Source: Candidatus Heimdallarchaeota archaeon (GTDB taxonomy: Archaea; Asgardarchaeota; Heimdallarchaeia; JABLTI01). From it: a stretch of 63,024 nucleotides of DNA. Location: positions 1 through 63,024 of the forward strand of contig JAGXNT010000052.1 of assembly GCA_019894765.1 (NCBI GenBank). The letters run 5' to 3'. Under the pieces are notes generated by a model. It did no database searches. It had not been told where the DNA came from and was given only the letters and a program-made list of their open reading frames with translations. Of the stretch, positions 2,112 to 56,414 are shown piece after piece (positions within the stretch are counted from its first letter, which is position 1; each line of letters starts with the position of its first letter). The position numbers and the translations under genes were made by a program.

Positions 2112-3410
2112 ATGAGTAAAGTAAAAGACCTAAAATTAGCGGATGAAGGGATGAAGGAACTAGAATGGGCAGAAAAAAATATGCCTATCTTAACTACCAT
2201 TCAGAAAAGATTCGAAAAAGAACAACCATTGAAAGGTAAGAAAGTGAGTCTTGCTCTTCACTTGGAAAAGAAAACTGGACAACTAATCAGAACACTACGA
2301 ACCGGGGGAGCAACCGTAAGAGTGGCTAGTTGCAATCCATTAACAACTGATGATCGAGTCGCAGCTGCCCTCACAAAATTTGATGGTATAGAAGTTTTTG
2401 CTTGGGCAAATCAAAGTACAGAGGATTATTATGCGAATTTGAATAGCGTACTTGATTCAAAACCAAATCTGTTAATTGATGATGGAGCTGACTTAATTAA
2501 TATTATACATTTCAAGAGACCGGAATTAATTCCAAATGTTGTTGGTGCTAGTGAAGAAACTACCACAGGCATTATCAGGTTAAAAGCAATGGAGAAGGAA
2601 GGAGCCCTTAAATTCCCAATAATCAATGCGAATGGTGCTTATTCCAAGCATTTGTTTGATAATCGCTATGGAACTGGCCAGTCAGCACTAAATGCAATTA
2701 TGACGATCACTAATAATTTGGTCGCAGGCAAAAATGTTGTTATTGTTGGTTACGGCTGGTGTGGAAGAGGATTAGCAATCAGGGCAAGAGGTATGGGGGC
2801 GAGAACAATTGTTGTCGAAGCTGGAGATAGAATGCCTTATGCAGAAGAAACAGAACCATCAGGTTGGCATAAGGGATTAGAAGCTTTGTACGAAGGGTTC
2901 GAAGTTATGAGCATGGATGAAGCTGCTCCTGTAGGAGATTTATTCATCACAGCAACTGGTGATAAGAAAGTAATTGACGTTAAACATATGAAACAAATGA
3001 AAAACGGAGCAATGCTCGCAAACGCAGGGCATTTTGATTTGGAAATAGATATCCCAGGTCTCGAAAAAATCACCAAAGAAATAAAGGAAATAAATTCAAA
3101 TTGTGAAGAATACATCCTAAAGGAAGGCAATAGCCTCTATCTCCTGTCAAAAGGACGTTTAGTGAACTTAGCCAGACCAGCAGGACAAGGACATCCTCTC
3201 GAGATAATGGATGGCTCATTTGCAATTCAAGCGTTAGCTCTCGAGTATCTAGCACAAAACGAAGGTATACTCGATAACAAGGTAATTAATATTCCACCTG
3301 AATTAGATGATTATGTCGCAAGAATGGCACTAGAATCACATAAAATACAATTACAACCATTAACGGATGAACAAAGAGAATACTTGACAGGATTCAAAGA
3401 AGGCACATAG
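2112..3410 (+). CDS. ahcY: S-adenosylhomocysteine hydrolase
   Basis: Predicted reaction: S-adenosylhomocysteine to adenosine plus homocysteine, with bound NAD, in the cytoplasm; it clears the product inhibitor of methyltransferases. Of 432 residues, the substrate domain contains EETTTGIIRL and NRYGTGQSAL, the Rossmann part has VIVGYGWCGRG, and the cofactor-capping NAGHFDLEID and MDGSFAIQAL motifs follow. The long C-terminal Lys/Tyr tail of bacterial and animal enzymes is absent, as in other archaeal members. The Methanocaldococcus homologue prefers S-inosylhomocysteine, so the substrate preference should be left open. The gene converges on rfcS with a shared hairpin between them. Confidence 0.95.
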   Translation: MSKVKDLKLADEGMKELEWAEKNMPILTTIQKRFEKEQPLKGKKVSLALHLEKKTGQLIRTLRTGGATVRVASCNPLTTDDRVAAALTKFDGIEVFAWANQSTEDYYANLNSVLDSKPNLLIDDGADLINIIHFKRPELIPNVVGASEETTTGIIRLKAMEKEGALKFPIINANGAYSKHLFDNRYGTGQSALNAIMTITNNLVAGKNVVIVGYGWCGRGLAIRARGMGARTIVVEAGDRMPYAEETEPSGWHKGLEALYEGFEVMSMDEAAPVGDLFITATGDKKVIDVKHMKQMKNGAMLANAGHFDLEIDIPGLEKITKEIKEINSNCEEYILKEGNSLYLLSKGRLVNLARPAGQGHPLEIMDGSFAIQALALEYLAQNEGILDNKVINIPPELDDYVARMALESHKIQLQPLTDEQREYLTGFKEGT

Positions 3411-3436
3411 GAGGTATTTCTTAATACCTCAAATTT
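3411..3436 (+). terminator. Terminator hairpin between ahcY and rfcS
   Basis: GAGGTATT (3411-3418) pairs perfectly with AATACCTC (3423-3430) around a 4-base loop and is followed by AAATTTTTATTTTT. It begins directly after the ahcY stop codon and may serve both converging genes. Confidence 0.65.
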
Positions 3437-4423
3437 TTATTTTTCATTTAATTTTAAACCAACAAGATGTGCGAGAAGGGCTGTTAATTGGATTTCAGGG
3501 TTAGAACCTTCTGTGAGTCTGAAATCAATTTCTCCGATCATTTTGATCATTTCAACTTTCGTTTTATCGTCTATATCGGTCATGACTATTGATTCTCGGT
3601 GAATCTGTTTAATGACATCTTGAGCTGCAAGTCCTTGTTTAATGAGTAATTCTAAGAGTAATTTTCGTGAATCATTAAAAGCACCAGTAGTAGCCAGTTT
3701 GATCATTTTACGGATTTCAATAGGTTGAGCTTTCCCAGTAGCATTGTAAATCTCTTCCTCAGTAATCTCTTTACCAAGAATGGCAGAAGATTGGAGAACA
3801 TTAGTTCCTCTCCTTAGATCTCCCTCAGACACATAAATAATTGCATCAATGCCTTCAGGTGTAATGGAAATATTTTCTTTTTTAATGATATTTTGAAGAT
3901 ACTTCTTTGTGTCTTTCTCATTGAGGGGGGCAAAGCGGAAGAGAGCACAACGAGATTGAATAGGTTCAATTATTCTAGAACTATAATTACAAATGAGAAT
4001 GAAACGACAAGTAGCGCTATACTTCTCCATAGTGCGTCGAAGAGCATGTTGAGCATCATTAGTCATGGAGTCGGCTTCATCCAAAATAATAACCCTAAAA
4101 GGAGCATTAATAGCCATAAGATGAGCAAAGTTCTTGATACGTTCCCTAACAACATTAATACCACGTTCGTCGGAAGCGTTTAATTCTAAGTAAGGAAAAT
4201 TAGTTTGAAGTTGATCTTCTTTACGACCAAAAACATCGAAATCCCCAAGAAGCTCGTTAATAAGAACAAGCGCAGCTGTAGTTTTGCCAGTTCCAGGCGG
4301 ACCTGCAAATAATAAATGAGGCATAGTTCCAGCTTCAATAAAACCTTTTAATCGATTCTTAATCTCGTCTTGATTGATGATGTCTTTCAAAAGTTTAGGT
4401 CGATATTTTTCTGCCCAGAGCAT
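3437..4423 (-). CDS. rfcS: Replication factor C small subunit (clamp loader)
   Basis: This AAA+ ATPase of 328 residues loads the PCNA sliding clamp together with the large subunit. It opens with MLWAEKYRP, has Walker A GPPGTGKTT, Walker B ILDEAD, the sensor/arginine-finger segment NYSSRIIEPIQSRC (SRC motif) and the C-terminal collar helices. The open frame reaches a further 13 codons upstream, but the ATG at 4423 has GGAAGG eight bases before it and matches the family N-terminus. The large subunit gene is not in the window. It lies head-on to ahcY and downstream of the TFB gene on the same strand, separated from it by a strong terminator hairpin. Confidence 0.96.
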   Translation of the reverse strand: MLWAEKYRPKLLKDIINQDEIKNRLKGFIEAGTMPHLLFAGPPGTGKTTAALVLINELLGDFDVFGRKEDQLQTNFPYLELNASDERGINVVRERIKNFAHLMAINAPFRVIILDEADSMTNDAQHALRRTMEKYSATCRFILICNYSSRIIEPIQSRCALFRFAPLNEKDTKKYLQNIIKKENISITPEGIDAIIYVSEGDLRRGTNVLQSSAILGKEITEEEIYNATGKAQPIEIRKMIKLATTGAFNDSRKLLLELLIKQGLAAQDVIKQIHRESIVMTDIDDKTKVEMIKMIGEIDFRLTEGSNPEIQLTALLAHLVGLKLNEK

Positions 4424-4460
4424 ACCTGTATAACCTTCCAAGTAAATTTGTATATATCGC

Positions 4461-4474
4461 ACATGATATCATGT
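4461..4474. promoter_or_regulatory. Perfect palindrome in the rfcS promoter region
   Basis: ACATGATATCATGT is a perfect 14-base palindrome. It sits between a TATA-like stretch (about 4477-4486 on the minus strand) and the rfcS start, close to where transcription should begin, a suitable place for a dimeric repressor. Confidence 0.35.
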
Positions 4475-4570
4475 TAACTTTTTATAATTTGCTATTACCT
4501 TTATCAAGTAGCAAAATATCGTACTATAACTAATCAGCATTCCTTTTTAAACATATTATGTTCAAAGAAA

Positions 4571-4620
4571 TCAAAAAAAGAGATGACAGAAGTGATGGTG
4601 GGTGATCTTGCACCATCACT
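4571..4620 (-). terminator. Terminator of the TFB gene
   Basis: A perfect 10-bp stem, AGTGATGGTG (4591-4600) with CACCATCACT (4611-4620). On the minus strand the hairpin is followed by a run of seven T near 4573-4579. It lies 42 bases past the TFB stop. Confidence 0.6.
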
Positions 4621-4661
4621 CCAATATCCGTATATGAGTTGTAAAAGAAGGTTTGAGACCC

Positions 4662-5654
4662 TTAGAATTTCTTGTAGGGATCCCTGACATATACTGGTGT
4701 CGCAGCAGCCCCTCTTTTTACAGTAACTTGACCAATTTCTAATGCTTTAACCAATTCCTTGAATCTATTTCGCAAGGTTACAGGTGTGGTTTTAGCCGCT
4801 TCAGCAACTTGTTGCTGGGTTCTTCTTTCTCCAGTCTGAATGCCTGCAATGTAAATGACTGCAGCAGCTATGGACATAGGATTCTTCCCTACATCGAGTT
4901 TGAATTCTCGAACAGTCAAGAGAATCTCGATTGCTCGATTTTGTGTGTGCATGGTTATGTTTAACTCAGATCCTAATCTTGAAACTAATTGAGCTGGATC
5001 GATTGGAGTTGGTTTTATCCCTAACTCAACAATGTAGACTCGTACACATCTAGCTAATTCTTTTCGATCCACTTTTCCAGTGGTGCATATGTCTTTGAGT
5101 GTTTTCGGAACGTTATGTGTTCTACATGCAATATAAATAGCGGAAGCCGTCATGGAATCTATACTTCTGCCTCGAATGAGCTTTGCTTTTAAGGCCCTTC
5201 GATAATAAATTGCTGCTGATTCAGTAATATCTTCAGATATTCCTAATTGACTGGCTATTCTTTTTAATTCAAAGATGGCGTCTCTTAAGTTTCTTGCTTC
5301 TGATCTTCCTGTGCGTCTGTTTAACCATCTTAGCCTATTCATTCTTGCAATTGTGGATGGACTTAAATTCTTTCCAGTTATGTCTTTATAACCGGCTCCA
5401 ATTTGTGTTCTTAATCCCTTATCAATTTTCAAATTTGAGGTTGGAGCACCAACTCTTTCTCGAGCGTCTTGTTCACTTTTTGTGAAGGCTCTCCATTCAG
5501 GACCTGAGCTAATAATGACTTCTTGAACCGCACCACAACTAGTGCATATCCTCTCACCACGCGATGTGTCATTTATTAAAGCGTCAGAACCGCAGACTTT
5601 ACAATTATTTTGAGAGTCGTCTTGCTCTTCCCTTACTTCTGTTTTGTTCAACAA
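4662..5654 (-). CDS. tfb: Transcription factor B (TFIIB homologue)
   Basis: TFB (330 residues) bridges TBP-bound promoter DNA and RNA polymerase. The N-terminus carries the zinc ribbon (CKVCG then CTSCG), followed by the B-reader/linker region around EWRAF and two cyclin-like repeats: the first includes AAIYYRRAL and IYIACRTHNVPKTLKDIC, the second AAAVIYIAG and QVAEAAKTTPVTLRNRFKELV. The length is slightly above the archaeal usual (about 300-320). The start is a TTG preceded by GGTG at nine bases. The gene has an excellent BRE/TATA promoter and a leader of roughly 90 bases with a hairpin, which suggests regulated expression. Confidence 0.97.
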   Translation of the reverse strand: MLNKTEVREEQDDSQNNCKVCGSDALINDTSRGERICTSCGAVQEVIISSGPEWRAFTKSEQDARERVGAPTSNLKIDKGLRTQIGAGYKDITGKNLSPSTIARMNRLRWLNRRTGRSEARNLRDAIFELKRIASQLGISEDITESAAIYYRRALKAKLIRGRSIDSMTASAIYIACRTHNVPKTLKDICTTGKVDRKELARCVRVYIVELGIKPTPIDPAQLVSRLGSELNITMHTQNRAIEILLTVREFKLDVGKNPMSIAAAVIYIAGIQTGERRTQQQVAEAAKTTPVTLRNRFKELVKALEIGQVTVKRGAAATPVYVRDPYKKF

Positions 5655-5707
5655 TTTTTATTACACCAAATATTCTTTTTATTAGTACTACTACAAGGAT
5701 AAGTTCA

Positions 5708-5732
5708 TACTCTCTTTCTCGGTATGAGAGTA
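5708..5732 (-). other. Hairpin in the TFB leader
   Basis: TACTCTC (5708-5714) pairs perfectly with GAGAGTA (5726-5732) around an 11-base loop. It lies inside the predicted transcribed leader, between the transcription start and the TTG at 5654. Confidence 0.35.
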
Positions 5733-5765
5733 GGACTACCTTGGTGGTATATCTCTCTATCTAAA

Positions 5766-5780
5766 TATATAAACCTTTCG
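5766..5780 (-). promoter_or_regulatory. BRE/TATA promoter of the TFB gene
   Basis: On the minus strand CGAAAGG is followed by TTTATATA (5773 to 5766), a near-consensus archaeal BRE plus TATA box. The expected transcription start is near 5743. Confidence 0.7.
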
Positions 5781-5945
5781 CCCAATTTTTCAAGCAAAGT
5801 ATTCCCCCTAATAGTACCCTATACTAGTACAATATAATGAAGAAACAAGAATATTTATTCTACTACAAGTTTGAAAATAGACCTACTGTCACCATATAGG
5901 AAAAACAAGAGAAAATAAAGAAATAAGAAAGAGAAAAAAGGAGAA

Positions 5946-6371
5946 TTAGTGTTTCACATCGAAATCTGGGCTGACATTACCACGGCATTTGCCATAGAAG
6001 AAATCTTTAGCACACCATGTGGCTTGGCCACCAACAAATGCAAAATTAATTTCACCTGAATCATAAATAATTCTATCATTTATCTCTACAACGATCTTAT
6101 TCAGAACCCATTTATCAGCATGAATACTGCGTTCTTTCTTAAGACAGAAATACTGGAACCAGTCTGATGTCAAACCTTCAGGAATATCCAAATCGAATTC
6201 ATCAGTTCGACCTTTTTCAAAATCATCACAGAATGGATGATCTAAATCCCAAGTGTGCTCACCAATGTATAACTTAATTGGATCATCGGTACCGCTTCCA
6301 CGTTTATTGTCAGTAGTAACAGTCACTTTCATCTTATGTATTATTTCACACATATCATCGTCTTCAGACAT
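5946..6371 (-). CDS. Single-domain PLAT/LH2-like protein
   Basis: The 141-residue protein reads as a stand-alone PLAT (lipoxygenase homology 2) beta-sandwich. The opening VTVTTDNKRGSGTDDPIKLYIGE-type segment, the acidic FEKGRTDEFDL strand and the closing DKWVLNKIVVEIND strand match the family order. In eukaryotes PLAT domains attach lipoxygenases, lipases and polycystins to membranes or proteins, often with calcium. Four Cys residues occur; no signal peptide is visible, so it is probably cytoplasmic. A strong GGAGG site precedes the ATG and a TATA-like AATTATATAG lies near 6424-6432. It stands alone between TFB and the dehydrogenase. Function is unknown. Confidence 0.75.
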   Translation of the reverse strand: MSEDDDMCEIIHKMKVTVTTDNKRGSGTDDPIKLYIGEHTWDLDHPFCDDFEKGRTDEFDLDIPEGLTSDWFQYFCLKKERSIHADKWVLNKIVVEINDRIIYDSGEINFAFVGGQATWCAKDFFYGKCRGNVSPDFDVKH

Positions 6372-6534
6372 TATGCTTTTCCTCCAATTTTTAGAAATTC
6401 ACTAATATTTTCTTTTAATTACTCTATATAATTCTTCTTACTAAAATTTGTTAGTTTATTTTCTTTACTAAATTAGGTTTTTTATTATACTTTCATGAAA
6501 TTCATCATAAAAAAATAAAAAGAATTGGTTGGAA

Positions 6535-7893
6535 TTAACCTGTCGGTTTTCCAACACCATAAGCAGTGAAACCTTTCTTTCGGAATTCTTTCAATTTTAT
6601 GACGTCTCGTCCATCAATAATTATTGGTGTTTTCATTACACCTTTGAGCCAGTCAGCTTTCAAATCAAAATATTCTTTGTGCTTAACAAAAATTACAACT
6701 ATGTCAGCGTCCTTAACAGTTTCTTCAAGGTCCTTGGAAACTGTGTAAGGAAATTCTCTTTGACGAACGAATGGATCATGAATCGCCCATTTTACACCTT
6801 CTTTCTCAAGAAGCTCAATATAAGTTTCAGTAGGTGAATTCCTTGTATCTTCTGAATTTTCAATAAACGATGCACCTAAAACAGCAACTTTTGCTTTAGC
6901 AAAATCAATGCCAGCATCCTTGGCTCCCTTTTTAGCAAGATTAATCATATGTGAAGGCATCATTTCATTTCGCATTCTAGACTTAACTATTACATCAAAA
7001 GGTACGTCTGTTTTCCCATAAGTATCCACACCATATTTCAAAAGCCAAGGATCTTTTGGTAAACAATGACCACCAACACCAGCGCCAGGTAAATGCAAAT
7101 CACGATAGGCATTGGAATTAAATGGAAGGCTATTAACACACTTACGAACTTCATTGAAGTTGACATCAAGTGATTCGCAAGCGAGAGCAACCTCATTAGC
7201 AAATGCGATCTGAACATCTCGATAGGTGTTTTCTACCACTTTAGCAACTTCAGCTGTAGTTGCTGAAACAGGTATTAATTCCTCATTCACAATATGCTTG
7301 TATAACCATAAGCCTTTCTTAGTGCATTCTTTTGTAATGCCACCGATAATTCGAGGGTAGTTAACTATATTGTTTATCAATCTACCAACCATGACACGTT
7401 CATAAGCAAAGACTAAGAAGAAATCTTTACCAACTTTCATGCCAGAATTTTCTTCTAAAATAGGTTTTACAATAAATTCAGTAGTTCCAGGAGCTACAGT
7501 GGATTCAACAGCAACAACAGCTCCCTTTTTCATTTTCTTACCAACAGTAGCGGAAACTTCTCGAAGGGATCGATACAAAGGTTCATGGGTATCTTTCTCA
7601 GTCGGAGTTTGTACATCGATAAGAATGAAATCCATATCCTTCAAAACATCCGTATCATCGGTTACACGGAAAGTCTTTTTTTCCAATACAACACGCTTTA
7701 TTAGTTCAGGTAAATCTGGTTCATTTAAGATTGGACACTCGCCTTTATTTAAAGCATCAATCTTCCAAGCAGAACGCTCGGACCGTCTTTGAATACCAAT
7801 AACATCAAAACCATCCTCATCAGCAAATAACGCTGCTGCAGGAATGCCAACATATCCCATTCCAATTACAGCGACTTTTGTTTTGTCAGCCAA
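6535..7893 (-). CDS. Nucleotide-sugar dehydrogenase (WecC/UDP-glucose 6-dehydrogenase family)
   Basis: Such enzymes oxidise the C6 (or equivalent) hydroxyl of a UDP-sugar to a carboxylate with two NAD. The 452-residue protein has the NAD motif VIGMGYVG at the N-terminus, the central helical domain with CESLDVNFNEVRKCVN, the catalytic thiol in GGHCLPKDP, and a C-terminal Rossmann domain with VAVLGASFIENSEDTRNSPT. UDP-ManNAc or UDP-GlcNAc dehydrogenase are the likeliest activities, supplying uronic-type sugars for surface glycans. The N-terminal motif is followed by an unusual IQRRSER instead of the common acidic residue that binds NAD ribose, so the cofactor preference may differ. The start is TTG. 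Confidence 0.88.
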   Translation of the reverse strand: MADKTKVAVIGMGYVGIPAAALFADEDGFDVIGIQRRSERSAWKIDALNKGECPILNEPDLPELIKRVVLEKKTFRVTDDTDVLKDMDFILIDVQTPTEKDTHEPLYRSLREVSATVGKKMKKGAVVAVESTVAPGTTEFIVKPILEENSGMKVGKDFFLVFAYERVMVGRLINNIVNYPRIIGGITKECTKKGLWLYKHIVNEELIPVSATTAEVAKVVENTYRDVQIAFANEVALACESLDVNFNEVRKCVNSLPFNSNAYRDLHLPGAGVGGHCLPKDPWLLKYGVDTYGKTDVPFDVIVKSRMRNEMMPSHMINLAKKGAKDAGIDFAKAKVAVLGASFIENSEDTRNSPTETYIELLEKEGVKWAIHDPFVRQREFPYTVSKDLEETVKDADIVVIFVKHKEYFDLKADWLKGVMKTPIIIDGRDVIKLKEFRKKGFTAYGVGKPTG

Positions 7894-8010
7894 TAGATAC
7901 CAACTCGTATGTAATTTTATTTGAATAAACTAGGAATATTGAAAATTTCTCCAAAAATATCTCTTACTCTTTCAAAAAAAGTGTTGTTTATTACTTTTTC
8001 TTTCAGTTTC

Positions 8011-10122
8011 TCATTTTGGGTTAAGGAGCTCAAGCATTTTACCAATTTCATTTGTGGGGAACTTGCAAAATCGATTAATACAAACATATGCCGTTGCTTT
8101 ATCATTTTTCGCAGACTTGTATTTCACAAAATCAGTAATATTGTAGATTTCAGGATTCTCTTCATCTGAAGGTACAAATAGAACAACCTTATTGGGAACA
8201 TATTCACTACTTACAGCCTTAAGCATTTCAGAAGTATCATTTGCATTATACTTTCCAACAATGACGACTTCAAAAGAAGGACCAAAGGCATATTCTAGTG
8301 CAGATAGAAATAGGGTAAACGCGAGGAGAGATTGCTCAATTGTAGTCGAAAATAGTTTATTCATTTGTACTGCTTTTTCCTCGAGAGTTAAGTCCATGGT
8401 AATTCTTGAGATTCGTAACATGTTCAACATAGCAACAGAATTTCCCGATGGAATTGCTCCATCATAGATTTCTTTCTTACGAACAAGTAATTCTTCTCCA
8501 TCATTAGGTGTGAAGAAGAAAGCCCCTTTGTCTTCATCCCAGAAATGTTCAATAAGTATATCATTATATTGAATTGCTTTTTTGAGATATACTGCCTTAA
8601 ATGTAGTTTGATATAATTCCAATAAAGCCCAAATCAGGAAAGCGTAATCATCGATCATACCTTTGATAGCAACTTCCCCTTCACGAAATCTGTGCATTAA
8701 TCGACCTGAATCTGTTTCGAGATTTTTTATGATAAAATCAAGAGCTTTTTCTGATGCCGTGATATATTCCTCATTACCAAAAGTTCTTCCTGCAATCGAA
8801 AAAGCAGCAATCATTAAACCATTCCAATCTGTAAGAATTTTATCATCTTTATGAGGATGAATACGTGTCTCTCGGTTCTCAAATAGCTTTGCTCTCATAA
8901 CCTCTAATTTTTCACTTAGCTCTTTAGTTGAAATCTTAAGCTCAGAAGCCAAATCAGTAATTGATTTCCTTAGATGTGGAATATTACTGCCTGTTTTTTT
9001 CTGTGTAGCTTGATCTTTGAAATTACCTTCTTTCTCAAAATTGTAAACTTGTAAGAATAAATTGCCATCTTCCTTTCCTAGAACTTTTAGTATATCGTCA
9101 TTTGTCCAAATATAGAATGTTCCTTCTTCACCTTCGCTATCAGCATCTTCTGCTGAATAAAATCCTCCTTCTTGTGAAGTCATGTCTCTTAGAACATAAG
9201 AAAGAATTTCTTCAGCAACTACCCGAAACTCATCTTTCTTTGTAGCTTGATAAGCTTCAACATAAGCAATAACTAAAAGTGCTTGATCATAAAGCATCTT
9301 CTCAAAATGTGGGAGAAGCCATTCAGAATCTGTGGAATATCGATGGAAACCAAAACCAATATGATCATACATACCACCTGATCGCATTGCTGTTAGCGTT
9401 TTTTCCACCATCATTAATGCTCCTTTATTACCAGTTCTTTTCCAATAACGAAGTAGAAACATTAACTTATGCGGTGTTGGGAATTTTGGAGCTCCTCTAA
9501 AACCACCATTTTTTTCATCGAAAAGAAGTGTGGCTTCACGATAAGCTTCATCTAACATATCTTGTTTTAATTCCTCTCCGGGTATAGTTTCAATACTTTG
9601 TAATTGAGAAATAACCTCTTTAGCCGCCATTTGTAATTCATCACGGTTATTGTCCCAATAATTCTTTATTTTTGGAATCAATTCGAGCATTCCGATTCGA
9701 CCAAAACGACTCTCTTTAGGAAAATAAGTACCAGCTGTAAATGGTTTCTTCTCAGCATCCATTATGATAGTTAATGGCCAACCACCACTCCCAGTTATCA
9801 TTTGGCAAACTGTCATGTATATATTATCAATTTCAGGTCTTTCTTCTCTGTCAACTTTGATGTTCACAAAAGTATCATTCATGAGCTTTGCAACCACAGG
9901 ATCCTCAAAAGATTCATGTGCCATAACATGGCACCAATGACAAGTAGAATAACCTATAGAGAGAAAAATTGGTTTGTCTTCCTTTTTCGCTTTCTCAAAA
10001 GCTTCTTTTCCCCAAGGATACCAATCCACTGGATTAGTTGCATGTTGCAGTAAATACGGACTTTTCTCTTTAATTAACCGGTTGTATTTTGGCTTATTTT
10101 TTTCACTAGCTTCTTTACTCAA
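8011..10122 (-). CDS. SPATA20/YyaL-like protein: thioredoxin-fold domain plus six-hairpin domain
   Basis: This 703-residue protein belongs to the DUF255 family, found in all domains of life (human SPATA20, Bacillus YyaL). The N-terminal thioredoxin-like domain carries the family's [15 protein letters not shown] motif, and a long alpha/alpha-barrel-like region follows with [27 protein letters not shown] and [13 protein letters not shown]. The exact biochemical role is unknown; the CxxC pair suggests a redox activity and the barrel resembles sugar-processing folds. The start is TTG preceded by GGTG at nine bases. The next gene upstream on the same strand is a peroxiredoxin (45 bases away), so both may belong to one redox transcript. 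Confidence 0.93.
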
Positions 10123-10802: not shown

Positions 10803-11366
10803 TTACTTGCCATATAATTGCTTGAGTAAGATTTCTCTAGCTATAGATTGGAAAGCTCTCTTAACACCAATTCCTTTTGTAGCGATTGTTTCATACACAG
10901 GATAACCATCTAATCCGAGACCAGCCATCATTTCAGGTCGGCTAAGTGCACCTGGAACATCTCGCTTATTTAGAGTGATAACAATGGGAACTTCTTTTCC
11001 AAATTGATCGCCTAAGAATTCTTTGAGCTCATCAACAGATTCTTGATTATATTTTTGCATTTCAGGAGTGGAATCTAGCATAAGAATAATTCCATCAACA
11101 CCACGTAGGATAACTTTCCTTTGGCTTTTGTGTCTAGTTTGTCCGGCAACTGTGTAGGCGTCAAGAATTACTCGTCCAGAAGCAGAAAATGGTGTGAAAT
11201 CGAAATAAAGTGTTCTACCAGTCGGATCAGCGATTGATGTAAAACCACCTTTGGTTAACCCTTCGACTTGGTCGTAGAGCCATCGTAAACCTGTAGTTTT
11301 TCCACTAAGAGAAGGCCCGTAGAAGACAATTTTTAAGTGAATTCGACCTTGACTATCCTTTCGCAA
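10803..11366 (-). CDS. MglA-like small Ras-family GTPase
   Basis: A 187-residue G domain. Motifs: G1 GPSLSGKTT (residues 17-25), switch region with GRTLYFDFTPF, G3-equivalent TVAGQT in place of DxxGQ, the following RKVILRGVDGIILMLDS, G4 NKRD. The G3 with T-V-A-G, the KxILRGVDG block and NKRD closely match bacterial MglA, the polarity switch that pairs with roadblock protein MglB. There is no C-terminal lipidation motif. The start is TTG with GAGGT upstream and several TATA-like boxes near 11388-11411. It lies downstream of the FYVE-like/GRAM-like gene on the same strand but behind a terminator-like hairpin. Confidence 0.93.
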   Translation of the reverse strand: MRKDSQGRIHLKIVFYGPSLSGKTTGLRWLYDQVEGLTKGGFTSIADPTGRTLYFDFTPFSASGRVILDAYTVAGQTRHKSQRKVILRGVDGIILMLDSTPEMQKYNQESVDELKEFLGDQFGKEVPIVITLNKRDVPGALSRPEMMAGLGLDGYPVYETIATKGIGVKRAFQSIAREILLKQLYGK

Positions 11367-13320: not shown

Positions 13321-15057
13321 ATGGAAGAGAAGAAATCATCAGACTACCTCTGGAAGATTGTGCTCTGTGGCACAAGTTTCGTAGGTAAAACTACAATAAG
13401 AAAACGTGCTATGGGAGAGCATTTTGCAGAAGAGTATATTTCAACCGTTGGTGCCGATTTCTCCTCCTATAAATTAAGACTTGGAGATTTGACAATAGGA
13501 TTCCAAGTATGGGACTTAGCTGGTCAAGACAAGTACAAATATATTCGTTCAAGTTTTTATGGAGGAGCAACAGGATGCTTCCTAGTTTTTGATGTAACAA
13601 ATCCAAAATCCCTGAAGGACTTATCCTCATGGGTAGACGAAGCAATTAGATACTCTAATGGTACTATTGAGATTTTTGTGATTTGTGCGAATAAAATTGA
13701 CTTGAAAGGTTATCGAGAAATAACAAGGGATATGGGAGAAAAATATGCTTCAGCAATAAGAGAGAGCTCAGGTCTCCAATGCGAATACATTGAAACATCC
13801 GCATTGACTGGAGAGAATATTGATGTTGCTTTTGATCAAATGGCAAAGTGTTTGCTTGAGCGCGAAGGAATTAGTCCTATTCAACCAATAGAAGAAATTA
13901 TAGAAACTGCTGAAGAAAGTCCTGTACATGTTAGTGAATCTCCTGTAGATGTATCTGAACCCTTGCCCACTGAAAGCACTATTGAACCAACTACTACAAA
14001 AGTAATTGATACTATACCATCGACAAGTAAATCCATACTTATAGAGGAAGACAGTGGGGAAGCGACAGAGAAATTAATTGCAGAAGTAATGGCTGTTCTC
14101 GACGAAACAGATGAAATAATAATTGGTCGAGAAAAAACAGCGGATGGAGAAAGAGCAATAACAGTAACAAAGGATGAAATCACAGAACAAGCTGTGGAAG
14201 ATGAACAAGAACCTAAAATTAGCAACGAACTCGAACGTGTTCTTGGACAAATAAACATAAAACTCGACAGCTTAACTGATCGATTAAAAGGTCTCGAAGA
14301 AGAAATATCCCAGGTAAAACCTGAGGAATTGTTAGCAGAATCTGAAGAAGAAATCGTAGATATTAGTGACATGAGGGATGAATTAGATATAATTACTCAA
14401 GAAACATTTACAACAGAAACACTGGTCACAGAAGAGGAACCTTTCACAGAAATAATCGAAGAAGTGATTTTTGAACCTGAAGAAGAAGAAGAACCCGAAT
14501 TACCTGAACCTATGCTTCCCTTAATGGATGAATTTGAAAAAGATAAACTAGATGAAGATCAGAAAGTTTTGGAAAGTCTTGTAGAAACAATTCCACTTCA
14601 TCCTAAACCTATTCAAGCTCAAGAAATAGAAGAGGATATTGAGGAAGAAGATGAAGAAGAAATTGAAGAACTAGAGGAAGAAATATCGGAACCAAATCCC
14701 AAAGAGAAAGACACTCAAATAAGATATCTAGCTGATATACCAGACAATGAATTAGTAGAGATTCCTGATGAAGAACCACTTTTATCAATAGATGATGAAG
14801 GAGTGATTGAAGAGGTTGAAGATGAAATCAGTTCAGATGATAGTGTTATAGGGACTGAACTATCAAGTGCTATGATTTCAGAATTAAAAGATATGTCAGA
14901 GGATGAAGAAGAACAAGTAGAAGCAACTTTAACTCAACCTGTCCAGGTAGAAAGAATTGAGAAGAAAAATCATTGTCCCATCTGTGGAGAAGACACAAAA
15001 TACATTAGACAATACAATAAGTATTATTGCGTAAAATGTGGACGTTATTTAATCTAA
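13321..15057 (+). CDS. Rab-like GTPase fused through an acidic linker to a C-terminal zinc ribbon
   Basis: Residues 1-180 are a complete Rab/Ras-type G domain: G1 GTSFVGKTT (17-25), G2 threonine in STVGADF, G3 WDLAGQDKYKYIR, G4 NKID, G5 ETSAL. The Gln after DLAG is present, so it should hydrolyse GTP. Residues about 185-545 are a very acidic Glu/Asp/Pro/Thr-rich, probably disordered linker. Residues 550-578 form a zinc ribbon (C552, C555, C570, C573). Ordinary Rab proteins end near 200 residues with a prenylated Cys; here the zinc ribbon replaces that tail, so any membrane contact must be indirect. The ORF is continuous without frameshift. It is divergent from the FYVE-like/GRAM-like gene. 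Confidence 0.92.
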   Translation: MEEKKSSDYLWKIVLCGTSFVGKTTIRKRAMGEHFAEEYISTVGADFSSYKLRLGDLTIGFQVWDLAGQDKYKYIRSSFYGGATGCFLVFDVTNPKSLKDLSSWVDEAIRYSNGTIEIFVICANKIDLKGYREITRDMGEKYASAIRESSGLQCEYIETSALTGENIDVAFDQMAKCLLEREGISPIQPIEEIIETAEESPVHVSESPVDVSEPLPTESTIEPTTTKVIDTIPSTSKSILIEEDSGEATEKLIAEVMAVLDETDEIIIGREKTADGERAITVTKDEITEQAVEDEQEPKISNELERVLGQINIKLDSLTDRLKGLEEEISQVKPEELLAESEEEIVDISDMRDELDIITQETFTTETLVTEEEPFTEIIEEVIFEPEEEEEPELPEPMLPLMDEFEKDKLDEDQKVLESLVETIPLHPKPIQAQEIEEDIEEEDEEEIEELEEEISEPNPKEKDTQIRYLADIPDNELVEIPDEEPLLSIDDEGVIEEVEDEISSDDSVIGTELSSAMISELKDMSEDEEEQVEATLTQPVQVERIEKKNHCPICGEDTKYIRQYNKYYCVKCGRYLI

Positions 15058-26196: not shown

Positions 26197-27081
26197 CTAT
26201 TGGAACCAATCAGTGCTATAATCCCCAATCCATCCGATTCCTAGGCAATTTGGTCCCATATGCGTTCCAAGAAAAGGACCGATTAAGAACATTTCAACTT
26301 GATTAGGTTTATTCTTTTTTTGGGAAAGAATGAATTCTTTTAATTCCTTAGCTTCAGTTGGCATGAGTGAGTGAATAATTATTACAAGATCAACTTTCCG
26401 ATTTCTTAGGATATCAGGAACTCGTGCCATCAAAAGCTCTAATCCCTTATCGAATCCTTTAACTCTACCAATGTTTTTCACAAGACCATCTTCAATTGCA
26501 ATTACAGGTCGAAAATTCGCAAGATTTCCTATAACTTGTTTCGCAAAACTAATTCTGCCCCCTTTGCGAAGGTAATCTAAGGATTTCATTATGGCAACAC
26601 CATGAGCGTGAGGGATGAGCTGATTTACTCGTTTAATTATTTCATCTTTAGAAGCACCAGCTTGAGCCATTTTGGCAGCTACATAAACAAGTAACCCCTC
26701 CACAACGGTGATAGTTTGAGAATCAATAACTGTAATGTCTTTATCAGTAAACATCTCTGAAACTTTCAAAGCGATGCTATAACTACCACTTATCTTACTA
26801 GAATGAGCAATGACAATCAAAGATTCAAAATCCTTCAAGGACTCTTCATAGACATTATAGATGTCTCCTTGAGTAGGAACAGAGGTAGTAGGGATTTCTT
26901 TTGATTTCTGTAATTTCTCGAAGAACTCCTCAGCAGTAATATCAACATAATTCTTGTATGGTTTCACTCGATCCTCGATCATAATTTGTGTGGGGAGAAT
27001 TCCAATATTGAATTTCTTCACCCATTGCGGAGGTAGATCTATAGTGCCATCTGCTAGAATCCTTACCTTTTGTATTGCCAT
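26197..27081 (-). CDS. DegV family fatty-acid-binding protein
   Basis: The 294-residue protein has the family's two-domain pattern: an N-terminal VRILADGTIDLPPQ with LPTQI, the ligand-site motif TTSVPTQGD, then IAHSSKISGSYSIA and the C-terminal YLRKGGRIS segment and FLGTHMGPNCLG. DegV/FakB proteins hold a fatty acid in a deep cavity; bacterial FakB hands it to the kinase FakA. What lipid an archaeon would use is unclear. AGGAGATGG precedes the ATG. It is divergent from the ESCRT-III gene. Confidence 0.92.
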   Translation of the reverse strand: MAIQKVRILADGTIDLPPQWVKKFNIGILPTQIMIEDRVKPYKNYVDITAEEFFEKLQKSKEIPTTSVPTQGDIYNVYEESLKDFESLIVIAHSSKISGSYSIALKVSEMFTDKDITVIDSQTITVVEGLLVYVAAKMAQAGASKDEIIKRVNQLIPHAHGVAIMKSLDYLRKGGRISFAKQVIGNLANFRPVIAIEDGLVKNIGRVKGFDKGLELLMARVPDILRNRKVDLVIIIHSLMPTEAKELKEFILSQKKNKPNQVEMFLIGPFLGTHMGPNCLGIGWIGDYSTDWFQ

Positions 27082-27338: not shown

Positions 27339-27947
27339 ATGGTATTTGGAAAATTTGTTCGTTGGCTTGGCGGTGGGAAATCCACCCGAGATTATATTAT
27401 TGATTTGAAAATGGTTAATAAGCGTTTAGCTCGCTCATCTAAGAAACTTGAAACTGATGAACAGAAACTGCAAAGAAAGACTCGAGATGCTATGAGAAGA
27501 GGATTAATGGATCAAGCAAGATTATATGCCTCAAATGTTGCTAGAAATCGAAAATGGGTTTATAGTTATACTCGACTCACTACAAGAATTGAAGGCATTA
27601 TTTTCAGATTAGAACAAGCTGATTCTGTCCAACAATTAGCAAGTGAATTGAAAGGAATGGCTGGTGCTTTACGAGAAGTAAATGCTAGTTTGAATGCTCC
27701 TGAAATTTCCGCGTTGGTTGAAGACTTAGAAAACTCATTTGAAGGCATCGAAATGACTACTGATATGATGGATGAAGATTTTGAAAGCATGATGTCCCTC
27801 GATGTTGATGAAACTGAAGTTGATAAAATCATGGGAGAAATCGGCACTGAGATTGGTCTTGGCGCGGAAACAGGCTTACCAACTCCAGATATTCGTTCTA
27901 CAGAATTAGCCAAAGAAATAGAAAAACTACGTGAAGATAAAGAATAA
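27339..27947 (+). CDS. ESCRT-III family protein (Snf7/CHMP-like)
   Basis: A 202-residue protein with the ESCRT-III layout: a basic N-terminal helical hairpin (KMVNKRLARSSKKLETDEQKLQRKTRDAMRRG then ARLYASNVARNRKW), further core helices, and an acidic C-terminal half (from about residue 140) with a late helix. The 'ARLYAxxxxRxRK' segment of helix 2 is characteristic. The final helix, L190-x2-E-I-x2-L197-R198, resembles a MIM1 motif that would recruit the Vps4 ATPase, and LPTP (180-183) precedes it. The protein should polymerise on membranes for scission or division. Vps4 itself is not in the window. The Rag-like roadblock gene follows on the same strand. Confidence 0.9.
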   Translation: MVFGKFVRWLGGGKSTRDYIIDLKMVNKRLARSSKKLETDEQKLQRKTRDAMRRGLMDQARLYASNVARNRKWVYSYTRLTTRIEGIIFRLEQADSVQQLASELKGMAGALREVNASLNAPEISALVEDLENSFEGIEMTTDMMDEDFESMMSLDVDETEVDKIMGEIGTEIGLGAETGLPTPDIRSTELAKEIEKLREDKE

Positions 27948-27961
27948 TCGTTTTTCTTAAA

Positions 27962-28000
27962 GTTCAGCATATTTTCGCTGAACATTGTTTTTTCTTTTTG
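27962..28000 (+). terminator. Terminator after the ESCRT-III gene
   Basis: GTTCAGC (27962-27968) pairs perfectly with GCTGAAC (27977-27983) and is followed by a long T-rich run, about 15 bases past the stop. Confidence 0.6.
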
Positions 28001-28085
28001 TTTTCCTTTTCCTTATCACAAATCTTTTTTTAGCTTAATGGTATTACAGTAAGAAAGTTAGCTTAATTTTGGCTTGGTGAGTGCT

Positions 28086-28985
28086 TTGTCAATTTATGAA
28101 GAAGAACAAAAAAAGATACTTATTGCCGGTCTTCCCGGAGCTGGTTTGCGGACTATAAAAGCAGTTGTTGTTGATAATACTCCTCCTACCGAACTAAAAG
28201 CTGTAATGGAAAAGCTTGATGTTGGGAATACTATGAGAGACCTTTTGCAACGAAAAGTTCTCGTTGTGAGATGCGGTGGTGAGTATTCAATACAAGACAT
28301 AGTAGCAAGTGACAATGATCCAATATACAAAGATGTTGAAGCTTTAGTATTTGTATTAGATATAAACGAGCAATCAAAGTTTTCAATGGCCAAATTTTGG
28401 TTTGATGCTCTTGTAAAACACTTGCAAAAATTCAGTTCCGAAGCAAGAATCTACTTACTTCTGAATAAAATCGATAAAATGGCAGAGCAAGAAAATATTT
28501 CTGATTATATTCGGGCTACTAAGAATTTGTTCATAGATGAAGGTTCAGATGTTATAATACATGAAACAAGTATCTATGACGCATCCACCTTTTATGCCTT
28601 TAAAGATGTTTTAATGAAGGAAGTAGACGATCAAATTTCAGTTAAGCAATTCCTTAAACGTTCTCTCAGAGGTTCGTCATTCTTGGGTTTGGCTGTCTAT
28701 TCAAAAGACGGATTACCTATTTACGATGCAGGTGAATTACCTCAAATTGTTGAAATTGCTGCTAATGTGATGTTGGGTTCCGTCAGTAGAATTTCGGATG
28801 AACTCGAGCAAGATGATGAAATCAGCTCTACGATTTTACAAATGAAAAAGAAGAGCTTTATGGTTTTCAAAGCAGTTAATGAAAACTGTGTTTTTATTGG
28901 GTTAAGTAAACGAAGACCAAGATTAGGGCAAATGCTTATCGAAACAGATCAAATAGTGAAAGTCTTACAGAGAGCAGTGGATTAG
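28086..28985 (+). CDS. Rag/Gtr-like pseudo-GTPase domain plus C-terminal roadblock domain
   Basis: 299 residues from TTG 28086, which has GGTGAG immediately upstream; TTG 28074 and GTG 28077 are alternatives. Residues about 10-185 have a Rag/Gtr-like G-domain order with broken motifs: the P-loop reads GLPGAGLRT (Lys to Leu, Ser/Thr to Arg, residues 15-23), the WDxGGQ motif reads VRCGGE (61-66), while G4 NKID (127-130) is intact. Residues about 192-299 (LGLAVYSKDGLPIYDAGE, then CVFIGLSKRR) form a roadblock/LC7 domain. G domain plus C-terminal roadblock is exactly the eukaryotic Rag architecture. Probably a non-hydrolysing partner in a heterodimer or scaffold. Confidence 0.8.
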   Translation: MSIYEEEQKKILIAGLPGAGLRTIKAVVVDNTPPTELKAVMEKLDVGNTMRDLLQRKVLVVRCGGEYSIQDIVASDNDPIYKDVEALVFVLDINEQSKFSMAKFWFDALVKHLQKFSSEARIYLLLNKIDKMAEQENISDYIRATKNLFIDEGSDVIIHETSIYDASTFYAFKDVLMKEVDDQISVKQFLKRSLRGSSFLGLAVYSKDGLPIYDAGELPQIVEIAANVMLGSVSRISDELEQDDEISSTILQMKKKSFMVFKAVNENCVFIGLSKRRPRLGQMLIETDQIVKVLQRAVD

Positions 28986-28998
28986 AAAAAACTAGAAT

Positions 28999-29802
28999 TC
29001 ATTGGGATCCTATCTGATCCTGTTTCAGCGTAACAATTTCCGGAAGATCGACTGCAACTTCTTCCATTAATCTTCTTCTTATACAAGCTAAAACAGCATT
29101 CTCAAGATTCCTCTTCTCTAAAATCACTAATGGTAATTTTTGAAGTTGTGCGGTAAGTAATCCTTCATAAGATGTATCGCCAATTAGAATAGCATCTAAA
29201 TTGAGCTCATGTACATTTTCCATTAATTCATTTCTGATTTCATAAAAGAAAGCTATTTTTTGCACCTTAGTTTGACTGTATCCTAAATAACGTAAATCAT
29301 CACTTATATGTTGTTTGAGTAATTCTAACAATTCTTTGTATGAAATTTTCTTTTTTCGCTCACCCATTCGTCCTGTTTGCTTTTTAGCTTTCTTATGCTT
29401 TGTTTGATACTCAGCTTCTAATAGCGATGTATATTCAAAATCGAGGAGATTAAGGAGATAATCAAACCCTCCTTTTTCTGTGATTAACCAGTCCTCTCCA
29501 AGAGAATAAACACCTATATTCTTCTCCAATAATATCTTGAGTAATTCAAGGTTTTCTTTGCTAATTTTTCGATGTTTGCTTTGCACAAAAATAGGGGGAA
29601 AAACAGTAATTATTAATTGTACATCATCTTTTGCTGCAGTAGCAACAGCTTTACGAGTAAGCCTTGCAGAGACTAAACATTTCTTTACTTTTGCTTTGGA
29701 TGTAAGTAACCGTTCCTCACCAATGATTATTCCCGCATCTTCTCCAATCTTGCCTTTGAATTCCTTACGTATTTTTTCCAAAGCTTGAATTACTTCATTC
29801 AT
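28999..29802 (-). CDS. Divergent NIF3/DUF34-like protein
   Basis: A 267-residue protein with the NIF3 (YbgI) pattern: KVKKCLVSARLTRKAVATAAKDDVQLIIT near the N-terminus, the central ISKENLELLKILLEKNIGVYSLGEDWL, and a C-terminal IGDTSYEGLLTAQLQKLPLVILE. NIF3 proteins usually bind two metal ions through a HHP motif; here the site reads TVFPPIF and the other His ligands are not evident, so metal binding is doubtful. A basic insertion (KHKKAKKQTGR) sits mid-protein. No specific reaction is established for the family. Divergent from acdA. Confidence 0.65.
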   Translation of the reverse strand: MNEVIQALEKIRKEFKGKIGEDAGIIIGEERLLTSKAKVKKCLVSARLTRKAVATAAKDDVQLIITVFPPIFVQSKHRKISKENLELLKILLEKNIGVYSLGEDWLITEKGGFDYLLNLLDFEYTSLLEAEYQTKHKKAKKQTGRMGERKKKISYKELLELLKQHISDDLRYLGYSQTKVQKIAFFYEIRNELMENVHELNLDAILIGDTSYEGLLTAQLQKLPLVILEKRNLENAVLACIRRRLMEEVAVDLPEIVTLKQDQIGSQ

Positions 29803-34170: not shown

Positions 34171-34324
34171 ATAAAAGGAGTTACAATTTTCGTAGTTGTG
34201 ATTGAAATAGCAATGCTCCTAAAAACAAATGTATTAATAGAGTTAAGTTCAATAACAGATAGAGCAAAAATAAAGTTTGAAATTGGAGTGTAACCAATTA
34301 GGTTCAAAATTGGTCGGTAATATC

Positions 34325-35578
34325 ATGGATCCGTGGCTAGTATTTCTAATAATTTTTGTATTTGTAGTAATCGTAATCGTCATAGCCTCGCTAAGGAGAA
34401 AGGGTCAGAAAAAAGAACCAAGAAGAGCTGTTCATACTTATTTAGAACATGGTGACTATGTCTCAGCAGGACGAATGCACTTACAACAGAAAAAAGAAGA
34501 AGAAGCAGCAAGTCTTTACTTCCAAATACCCCCAGATAAGAAACCATTATATGAATCCATGATCCTCCAACAATTAGGTGCACAATCCGCTCAATTATTC
34601 TGGATAAAAACAGGCAGAAGATTGGAAAGAAGTTCACCAGAACATGCCAAAATTGCCTATTTACTTGCAGGCGCTCATTTTGATGCTGTTAAGATGTTTA
34701 TCGATAGAAATAATCCGACCGATGCTATAGAAATTGTGAAGCATATTCAGGTAAGTCATCAAGAAAGTACCGTTAGAAGATTATCTCAATATGCATTTAA
34801 TCGTGGGAAATATACTATCGCTGCTGATTTATTACGTGCTATTGGTCTAGTAGATGAAGGTGATGCAATACTAGCAGTAGCTGCCCATGAATTTGGTGCT
34901 ATCGAAAGACCAGAAATGGCCGCAACTATGTATGATTCCGTTGGAAGACAAGACCTTGTAGGAGAGTCACAGGAACATCGTGGAGAACAAGCGCTCTCGC
35001 AGGGTAAGATTGAAGAAGCAAAAGTTGCTTTTGAGGAAGCTGTTAAAGCTTACGATGAATCAAATCAACCAAAGGATGCTTTAAGAGTAGAGGATCGCTT
35101 AAAGAAGTTCAATTTATTGGATAAATTCAGGGATTATGCAGCTAATGGGAATGCAGAAGCTGCGGAAGACATGATTGATGAAATCTCTGCAAGCTTTCCT
35201 GCTATAGCAATGTCCGACTTGTATGCCGAAATTGCCGCAGTTCTTGAGAGGAGTGGTCGGCCTTCAGATTCTGTTACCTATTATGATAAAGCTGCAGATT
35301 CAACAAATAATCCTTTGAAAAGACAAGGGTATGTTAATGCATTACGTAGAGTTGGATCACAAATTGCTTCACAACGAGGAGCAGGAGAAACAGTCGCTAC
35401 TTCGAATTTGAAAGATAATTGCATTGTATGTAAACGTCCAATTAGTAAAAACGAACGTATTGTTTCCTGTCCTCATTGCAGTAAAACCGCCCATTATTCG
35501 CACTTTATTGAATGGGTTAAAGTGCAAGGGTCCTGCCCAAATTGTAATAATAGACTAAAAGCAGATGATTTCAAATAA
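34325..35578 (+). CDS. Membrane-anchored alpha-solenoid with C-terminal RING-like zinc finger
   Basis: 417 residues from ATG 34325 (MDPWL); an in-frame TTG at 34277 is less likely. Residues 3-25 are one strong membrane anchor followed by KKEPRR, so the bulk should be cytoplasmic. Residues about 35-345 are TPR-like helical pairs (YLEHGDYVSAGRMHLQ, AAKIAYLLAG-like units, ALSQGKIEEAKVAFEEA). Residues 366-407 hold C366-x2-C369, C382-x2-C385, H390-x2-H393, C404-x2-C407, a RING-like cross-brace order. The overall solenoid-then-RING plan recalls Vps11/Vps18 of eukaryotic tethering complexes, but without a beta-propeller. I know no named family; a role in protein-protein assembly at the membrane or in ubiquitin-type transfer is inference. 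Confidence 0.75.
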   Translation: MDPWLVFLIIFVFVVIVIVIASLRRKGQKKEPRRAVHTYLEHGDYVSAGRMHLQQKKEEEAASLYFQIPPDKKPLYESMILQQLGAQSAQLFWIKTGRRLERSSPEHAKIAYLLAGAHFDAVKMFIDRNNPTDAIEIVKHIQVSHQESTVRRLSQYAFNRGKYTIAADLLRAIGLVDEGDAILAVAAHEFGAIERPEMAATMYDSVGRQDLVGESQEHRGEQALSQGKIEEAKVAFEEAVKAYDESNQPKDALRVEDRLKKFNLLDKFRDYAANGNAEAAEDMIDEISASFPAIAMSDLYAEIAAVLERSGRPSDSVTYYDKAADSTNNPLKRQGYVNALRRVGSQIASQRGAGETVATSNLKDNCIVCKRPISKNERIVSCPHCSKTAHYSHFIEWVKVQGSCPNCNNRLKADDFK

Positions 35579-38607: not shown

Positions 38608-39372
38608 TCAAGTTCCTATGAAATAAATAATCATCAAAACTAGATAAATTATCATTGGTATTCCAGTCGCAATAGCAGTCTCCAACCATGAGAACTCACT
38701 TGCAGGTTTTATGATGAAAACCATGTAAATGCTAGCTGCTGCCAAACCCAAAAAGTGGATGATTAAACCAATTACCCCAATAAAGGAATGTCTGAGGAAA
38801 CTCATATCTGCATAAATTCCTGAAAAATCATATGAATCTGGTTCTCTCCAAGGTAGTGCAATAAGGAATAAAATACCGTTTATGAGTTCTGAAAAAACAA
38901 TTGGCATCATTCCATAACCCACAGCTGCCCGGATTTGCTTTCGAGAAGCTTTTCCACCCAGTAATCGAGTCATTAATCTAATGACCCAACTCCCTAAAAG
39001 CCAAACAAGCGTTGGTAAAAGCAAAATTGTAATCCAACCAACGAGGAAAACAACTGGATAAAACTTCCACGCGAGTAATCTCGTGTGCATAACAAATGAT
39101 AATACTTGGAGTGATAAGCCAAGTGAAATGGCTATAATGAATAAGAAAGCTCCTTTCGTATCAGGATTATCTGCTATTTCTTGGGCAATAACCCTTGGTT
39201 TCACAATAAGAGACTTAAATCTGAACCAAAATTCTTTGTATGTAACTGGAGCGAAGATTTTCTGTTCATATGTAACTGTTAAATCTGCCCCACAAAATGG
39301 ACAAAGTAAGTATCCTTGTGGTGAGACTTCGTTACATATTGGACAACGAATAATTACATCTTCGGTGCTCAT
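38608..39372 (-). CDS. Zinc ribbon plus Yip1-domain membrane protein
   Basis: 254 residues. N-terminal zinc ribbon (CPICN then CPFCG, about residues 10-29), an amphipathic stretch (YKEFWFRFKSLIVKPRVIAQEIADNPDTKGAF, typical of Yip1 entry segments), then five membrane helices with GYGMMPIVFSELI. In eukaryotes Yip1/YIPF proteins sit in ER/Golgi membranes and bind Rab GTPases; archaeal and bacterial members have unknown roles. The zinc ribbon at the cytoplasmic end is a plausible docking site. It is divergent from the pyroglutamyl peptidase gene. Confidence 0.75.
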   Translation of the reverse strand: MSTEDVIIRCPICNEVSPQGYLLCPFCGADLTVTYEQKIFAPVTYKEFWFRFKSLIVKPRVIAQEIADNPDTKGAFLFIIAISLGLSLQVLSFVMHTRLLAWKFYPVVFLVGWITILLLPTLVWLLGSWVIRLMTRLLGGKASRKQIRAAVGYGMMPIVFSELINGILFLIALPWREPDSYDFSGIYADMSFLRHSFIGVIGLIIHFLGLAAASIYMVFIIKPASEFSWLETAIATGIPMIIYLVLMIIYFIGT

Positions 39373-55766: not shown

Positions 55767-56414
55767 CTAAATGGGTTTGGGAAATACCATTTGTGGAATG
55801 TTTTTAGACACTCGTCGTTTCTTAGTTTCAATTACCTGACCATGAATCCATTGAAATGCTTCGTATATTCCTAATCCTGTGATTGAGCTTGCCTTCTGTA
55901 CATGAATGGTACGATCGAACAATCCTGTGAGTTGAAAGAGATGAATAACATAAGCAAGTGAACAGACATTGGGTAAATCTTGCTTTGTAGCAAGAACTAA
56001 TATTGGAATGTCTGGATTACAGTAATTATTTATTGCTTTGTGGAAAATGTCCTTTGCTAAAGGTAATCGACTAATGTCACTCGAGTCAACTACGAAAATA
56101 AGAATGTCTGCTCTTTCAATATATGCTGGCCAAAAGTGACGAAATACTTCCTGACCTCCAAGATCCATAACAGACATAGATAATTTCCCTAGTTTAAAGC
56201 TCTCATGATTTACACCCATAGTAGCTATAGTTTCTCGAAATTCGCCTTTCTTGAGAAAACTAAGAATGGAAGTTTTTCCGGCGTTATCTAATCCACACAT
56301 AGCGATATTGACTTTACGTTCAACTTTTCCGAAGAGTTTTGCAAGAAATCCCAAAGTTATTCCATCCTTTTTTACTTTTAATTGAAGAGCAATGAGAGGT
56401 ATCAAAAAACGCAT
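55767..56414 (-). CDS. Arf/Sar-like small GTPase
   Basis: 215 residues from ATG 56414 (GGAG six bases upstream); a TTG at 56354 with GGATGG upstream would give 195 residues starting MGFLAKLFGK, which aligns better with Arf N-termini (Gly2, P-loop at 21-28). Motifs: G1 GLDNAGKTS, G2 Thr in TMGVNHESF, G3 DLGGQE, G4 TKQD, then a G5-like region QKASSITGLG. The DLGGQ and TKQD are Arf-specific. A basic C-terminal tail (TKKRR) extends past the fold. In eukaryotes Arf/Sar recruit coats to membranes. Confidence 0.93.
   Translation of the reverse strand: MRFLIPLIALQLKVKKDGITLGFLAKLFGKVERKVNIAMCGLDNAGKTSILSFLKKGEFRETIATMGVNHESFKLGKLSMSVMDLGGQEVFRHFWPAYIERADILIFVVDSSDISRLPLAKDIFHKAINNYCNPDIPILVLATKQDLPNVCSLAYVIHLFQLTGLFDRTIHVQKASSITGLGIYEAFQWIHGQVIETKKRRVSKNIPQMVFPKPI

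Follow-up and report, generated by a model that had tools for sequence, protein, structure and literature searches.

Eukaryotic Rag GTPases (RagA/B and RagC/D; yeast Gtr1/Gtr2; PF04670) consist of a G domain and, C-terminal to it, a roadblock domain; they dimerise through the latter and recruit TOR to lysosomes. PseudoGTPases are proteins that act as scaffolds or allosteric partners. Rag-like proteins also occur in Asgard archaea, and dimerisation through the roadblock domains was proposed for an MK-D1 pair from AlphaFold 2 (AF2) models (PMC10933270). The same two domains are found in LokiRagO (Protein Data Bank entry 8yl2), LokiRagM (8zla/9m28), the MK-D1 proteins and an Asgard family that we designate H1; we label the other intact Asgard families H2, A, B, D and E. 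Here we describe a gene in a 63,024-nucleotide stretch of a Candidatus Heimdallarchaeota genome (the window) whose product is a Rag GTPase homologue that does not pass the sequence tests of a GTPase. We refer to the protein as pseudo-Rag and to its family as C. Our favoured interpretation, which we hold to be probable but by no means secure, is that pseudo-Rag is a lineage-restricted descendant of a Rag-type protein, most likely of H1, that does not work as a GTP switch and probably serves as a constitutive, non-cycling dimerising subunit. The parts of the gene are given below; here and throughout, coordinates are window positions.

28074..28985 (+): pseudo-Rag gene of 303 codons and a stop; the TTG start lies at 28074 or at the in-frame position 28086
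28104..28625 (+): residues 11-184, predicted G domain of Rag type
28128..28160 (+): degenerate P-loop GLPGAGLRTIK, residues 19-29, with Lys changed to Leu and the Mg-binding Ser to Arg
28191..28226 (+): switch I region, residues 40-51, its conserved Thr replaced by Lys47
28263..28283 (+): G3 motif VVRCGGE instead of DCGGQ, residues 64-70
28464..28475 (+): retained G4 motif NKID, residues 131-134
28566..28580 (+): retained G5 motif TSIYD, residues 165-169
28632..28982 (+): predicted roadblock domain, residues 187-303

A protein search with pseudo-Rag returned 40 homologues, 57-92% identical to the window protein. Motifs were counted in 35 family C sequences (34 homologues and the window protein) aligned with 115 intact relatives; one near copy (P0004) and the shorter sequences P0011, P0037, P0038, P0039 and P0040 were omitted, and the P-loop Lys is also absent from P0004 and P0038. 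The relatives come from 165 sequences found, 120 of them listed, less P0143, P0151, P0153, P0157 and P0159; they were collected with an intact query, and the 115/115 figures are no measure of how often a site is lost elsewhere. Columns were assigned to Mg, phosphate and base contacts from general GTPase knowledge. The P-loop Lys, found in 115/115 relatives, occurs in 0/35 C sequences, which carry Leu (28), Val (5), Ile (1) or Met (1) instead. Four further positions are also invariant in the relatives (115/115 each): the Mg-binding Ser/Thr of the P-loop survives in 3/35 C sequences, the switch-I Thr in 0/35, the G3 Asp in 1/35 (P0031 alone) and the G3 Gln in 0/35 (Glu in 16, Asp in 16, Asn in 3), so that each of the five phosphate, Mg or catalytic positions is lost in 32 to 35 of the 35. 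By contrast, the G4 Lys and Asp are kept in all 35, behind a first letter split between Asn (19) and His (16) that is always His in the relatives (115/115), and the TSI of G5 persists with Thr in 35/35 and Ser and Ile in 32/35 each. On this alignment, the phosphate, Mg and hydrolysis set is erased in family C, while the base-reading set is kept. The altered P-loop is itself conserved, with Gly19, Leu20, Gly24, Thr27, Ile28 and Lys29 each present in 35/35. Lys29 was considered as a migrated P-loop Lys and rejected, since its column holds Arg or Lys in 113/115 relatives and looks ancestral. The original prediction had read a dead P-loop, a degenerate WDxGGQ and a surviving NKID from the window gene; both losses recur across the family, in which the G4 motif persists as (N/H)KxD. 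It had also allowed that orthologues with intact P-loops would mark a sequencing artefact; because the same motif loss is seen in 35/35 sequences, the missing Lys is no sequencing error.

Could such a site still hold a nucleotide? GMS-type IRG (immunity-related GTPase) proteins bind nucleotide although Met replaces their P-loop Lys, and one may imagine that pseudo-Rag likewise binds guanine nucleotide, possibly Mg-free GDP, via G4, G5 and a P-loop of non-canonical form. The uniform G4 Lys and Asp, G5 Thr and new P-loop letters of family C would fit this idea. However, the motif loss in pseudo-Rag exceeds that of GMS proteins, so little remaining of the P-loop Mg ligand (3/35), the switch-I Thr (0/35) and the G3 Asp (1/35) that we think it unlikely.

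The G-domain ancestry is apparent at several levels. The Pfam profile Gtr1_RagA (PF04670) matches residues 14-196 (E 1.3e-21, 77.6 bits, cut-off 22), and among solved chains Gtr1 and RagA are the closest in sequence (2.3e-11 with the single sequence, 2e-18 with the family profile). Two structure models, one made with orthologues only and one that added intact relatives, both give a G-domain fold, with RagA/RagC/Gtr1 ranking first in the Protein Data Bank by Foldseek (E 2e-15 and 1.7e-16). The Pfam profile Robl_LC7 (PF03259) gave no score at E<=1 on pseudo-Rag, and the roadblock assignment comes from the predicted fold, in which residues 187-303 match MglB-type roadblock proteins (VIA-align). 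Unlike MglB and other Roadblock-LC7 proteins, pseudo-Rag fuses this fold to a G domain. The models thus place a roadblock fold after a Rag-type G domain, the order originally predicted, and neither yields the other kind of fold that would have told against it. The eukaryotic Rags are hence the best matches in sequence and fold and share the (N/H)KxD and TSI motifs; they differ in that pseudo-Rag has no P-loop Lys, Mg ligands or DxGGQ, and for pseudo-Rag a heterodimer and a TOR role would be conjectural. The LokiRag entries are GTP or GDP complexes, as far as their titles tell, whereas family C is without the Lys, which H1 keeps in 115/115; our literature search found no paper on these structures. 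With a predicted GTPase fold and canonical G motifs lost across its orthologues, pseudo-Rag resembles a pseudoGTPase in sequence and predicted structure, and as such would fail to bind or to hydrolyse GTP. The proteins p190RhoGAP pG1/pG2 (PMC5593906), CENP-M, Rnd1/3 (PMC10211241) and degenerate septins (PMC10731463) similarly combine a G fold with missing G motifs and are kept for binding or assembly. Those proteins are eukaryotic, belong to other GTPase families and in several cases come with biochemistry, whereas pseudo-Rag is known from sequence and a predicted fold. Among the open-access titles and abstracts that our literature searches returned (subscription papers and preprints being outside this scope), none describes an archaeal small-GTPase pseudoenzyme.

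Pseudo-Rag is under purifying selection. The ratio of nonsynonymous to synonymous substitution rates (dN/dS; Nei-Gojobori method, own script) of the window gene is 0.055, 0.065 and 0.084 against its three closest orthologues, at loci L001, L002 and L003, with the G domain and the roadblock domain alike; for the P-loop together with G3/switch-II the values rise a little (0.12, 0.14 and 0.11). More distant pairs are saturated, and the very close pair L004/L005 gives 0.38 from few changes. No internal stop was found in the eight genome copies of the gene. A sequencing artefact or a decaying gene could be invoked for the motif loss itself, but the loss is fixed across the family, the copies are free of internal stops and dN/dS values of 0.055-0.084 rule out decay, so we give this explanation practically no credence. 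Selection also bears on the idea that the protein is mainly a roadblock regulator of another small GTPase, an MglB-like GTPase-activating protein (GAP) or guanine nucleotide exchange factor (GEF) scaffold whose dead G domain is structural or used for docking. The G domain is conserved like the roadblock half (means of 3.24 and 3.13 bits per column), which argues that it is no mere leftover and makes this idea quite improbable.

What is the origin of family C, and how widely is it distributed? H1 (GLGASGKSS, DCGGQ, HKxD) is the likely, though not proven, source, because a full-length tree of 50 rows joins C and H1 by a branch at 95/90 and the C-to-H1 profile comparison runs end to end (296 columns, E 8e-38). 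The C-to-A profile match covers 208 columns (3e-19) and ends shortly past the G domain, and the C-to-B match covers 171 (5e-11) and ends at the G domain; the C-terminal halves of C against A and B lie outside the reach of this comparison. Both trees use 12 C rows, and the full-length tree omits the eukaryotic rows and groups D, E, T and U and has H2 rows cut at short-locus ends. The G-domain tree (63 rows) disagrees: C is monophyletic there (100/100) with a long stem, and a starred branch (95/92) sets 42 rows (H1, A, S, H2, B, T and two singles) against C, D, E and Gtr1/RagA. When constrained, that tree does not reject C with H1 (5.6 log units, approximately unbiased test p-AU 0.074), and C with Gtr1/RagA costs 0.02 log units (p-AU 0.46) and C with A and T 6.9 (p-AU 0.24). 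In the full-length tree P0031, the row that keeps the G3 Asp, branches first within C, the remaining C rows being grouped at 94/74; its position is consistent with a stepwise motif loss, as one row can suggest. A one-genome-per-species contig scan gave eight pseudo-Rag loci (L001-L008), seven titled Candidatus Heimdallarchaeota and one Asgard group archaeon. A full orthologue is present in 8/227 Asgard genomes, a survey in which, for some genomes, scoring was limited to 10 candidates; a ninth row at the same cut-off (G054) is an intact relative, and G058 holds a terminal fragment. Within the class, C occurs in 8/58 genomes and H1 in 10/58 (E<1e-100), and no genome has both. By record names H1 extends to Hodarchaeota, Hermodarchaeota, Thorarchaeota and Odinarchaeota, and a strict lineage restriction of C is weakened by homologues whose records are named otherwise (P0018, 'Bathyarchaeia'; P0035, 'Thorarchaeota').

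Based on the motif loss, the predicted fold, the selection and the distribution, we propose the following model. In a Rag-type ancestor with a G and a roadblock domain, the residues needed for hydrolysis and for binding Mg and the beta and gamma phosphates would have disappeared, while its fold, base-reading motifs and roadblock domain were retained. As these losses would deprive pseudo-Rag of GTP.Mg binding, it would not be a GTP switch; instead, it may use its roadblock domain to form a homodimer or a dimer with a different Rag or roadblock protein, and present one fixed G-domain surface to its partners. Both the failure to bind GTP.Mg and the dimer are steps that we infer. Several observations weigh against the model. 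Guanine, or GDP in Mg-free form, might still be bound by the NKxD and TSI that remain, and the domain orientation in the pseudo-Rag model is uncertain (predicted template modelling score, pTM, 0.58). As for descent from H1, the starred G-domain branch separates C from H1 plus 28 other intact rows, C with A is not rejected in the full-length tree (p-AU 0.37) and long-branch warnings apply to both trees. On sequence evidence, a non-switching subunit, be it a homodimeric scaffold or the silent half of a heterodimer, is the most economical account.

The original prediction had envisaged an intact Rag-like GTPase elsewhere in the genome as the partner. Intact Rag-like paralogues are indeed found in 8/8 related genomes that hold a pseudo-Rag orthologue: class A is present in 22/58 genomes of the class, including 6/8 with C, and class B in 24/58, including 7/8 with C. 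These genes adjoin each other, however, and not pseudo-Rag. They form an adjacent pair in 6/8 C genomes, and A and B are convergent neighbours, by coordinates, in 19/19 genomes with both on one contig, so that A and B look like each other's partner. No other Rag-like gene was seen beside pseudo-Rag in L001-L008, and we rejected a conserved pairing of the C gene with a second Rag gene, the pairs being A/B and H1/H2. At L120 (G005), where the two genes of this pair lie at 3193-4887 (+) and 4895-6112 (-), the stops of A and B are adjacent; class A proteins are ~410 amino acids long with a C-terminal CDVCGKQ segment, and class B proteins about 550-700. H1 and H2 are divergent in 10/10 H1 loci read (L047-L054, L056 and L057), which makes them a candidate archaeal Rag gene pair; at L119 (G054) they occupy 5844-6752 (-) and 7150-9366 (+), and H2 is 739 amino acids long. 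A specific heterodimer, in which pseudo-Rag is the permanent silent half and an intact A, B, D or E protein sets the signal by its nucleotide state, would accord with the paralogues in all C genomes, with the pairing of eukaryotic Rags through roadblock domains and the AF2 proposal for the MK-D1 pair (PMC10933270), and with degenerate septins, which are partners in hetero-oligomers (PMC10731463). Given the apparent mutual partnership of A and B, and their presence in genomes without C, we entertain it as a possibility short of an even chance.

The immediate surroundings of pseudo-Rag are as follows.

26197-27081 (-): DegV gene, upstream of pseudo-Rag
27339..27947 (+): ESCRT-III (Snf7) gene (Pfam Snf7 E 3.1e-19), upstream neighbour, probably a separate transcript
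27962..27983 (+): terminator-like inverted repeat GTTCAGC...GCTGAAC, by eye, then a T-rich tract to about 28022
28999-29802 (-): DUF34/NIF3 gene, downstream of pseudo-Rag

The proximity to ESCRT-III, pointed out in the original prediction, is conserved: the gene (89.6-98.5% identical) immediately precedes pseudo-Rag in the same orientation in 8/8 loci, with a gap of about 125-187 bases. One might therefore suppose that pseudo-Rag is expressed together with the Snf7 gene and serves ESCRT-III as an accessory factor. The functional link appears weak, however, as the wider gene order across the fetched flanks of L001-L008 is also largely conserved, the hairpin and T-tract stand in the gap in 7/9 sequences (the window, L001-L003 and L007, and, with one G-T pair, L004 and L005; absent from the gap in L006 and L008, all by eye), and no open reading frame (ORF) matching the Rag profile was found within about 1.5 kb of ESCRT-III in 22 loci of other genomes of the class (L097-L118). 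With a terminator-like hairpin between them the two genes are probably transcribed apart, an operon is doubtful and an accessory role is, in our estimate, very unlikely. An ESCRT-III match is present in 54/58 genomes of the class. In 21/22 of the other-genome loci an adjacent ORF with a WLFG start resembles, by eye, a second Snf7 protein; where pseudo-Rag is present, the ESCRT-III gene and this second Snf7-like ORF lie apart.

The window encodes further GTPases and other proteins of note. A 187-residue small GTPase at 10803-11366 (-) carries TVAGQ and an intact P-loop, GPSLSGKTT, and is MglA-like by eye, and a 578-residue Ras-family GTPase at 13321-15057 (+; PF00071 E 5.1e-39) has a long acidic tail and a zinc-ribbon-like CPICG...CVKCG C-terminus. 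A canonical Arf-family GTPase with an N-terminal extension at 55767-56414 (-; PF00025 E 2.7e-42) adjoins an ATP-binding cassette (ABC) transporter ATPase and an FtsX-like permease. A 433-residue tetratricopeptide repeat (TPR) protein at 34277-35578 (+) ends in a weak RING-like zinc motif and has, by eye, a hydrophobic stretch near its N-terminus. A Yip1-domain membrane protein is encoded at 38608-39372 (-; E 7.1e-16); in eukaryotes, Yip1 proteins are binding partners of Rab GTPases.

What are the implications of a Rag homologue of this kind? A protein that is selectively kept with no working nucleotide site would separate the Rag fold as a surface from the Rag fold as a switch, in a prokaryote, and it bears on whether a Rag dimer requires two working GTPases. 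We tentatively suggest, with more reservation than conviction, that pseudo-Rag is a RagA-like G-plus-roadblock protein of one Asgard lineage, stripped of its switch and fixed as the permanent structural half of a Rag-type dimer. If this were true, Rag complexes with a surface-only G domain would have an archaeal origin that either predates eukaryotes or is independent of them.
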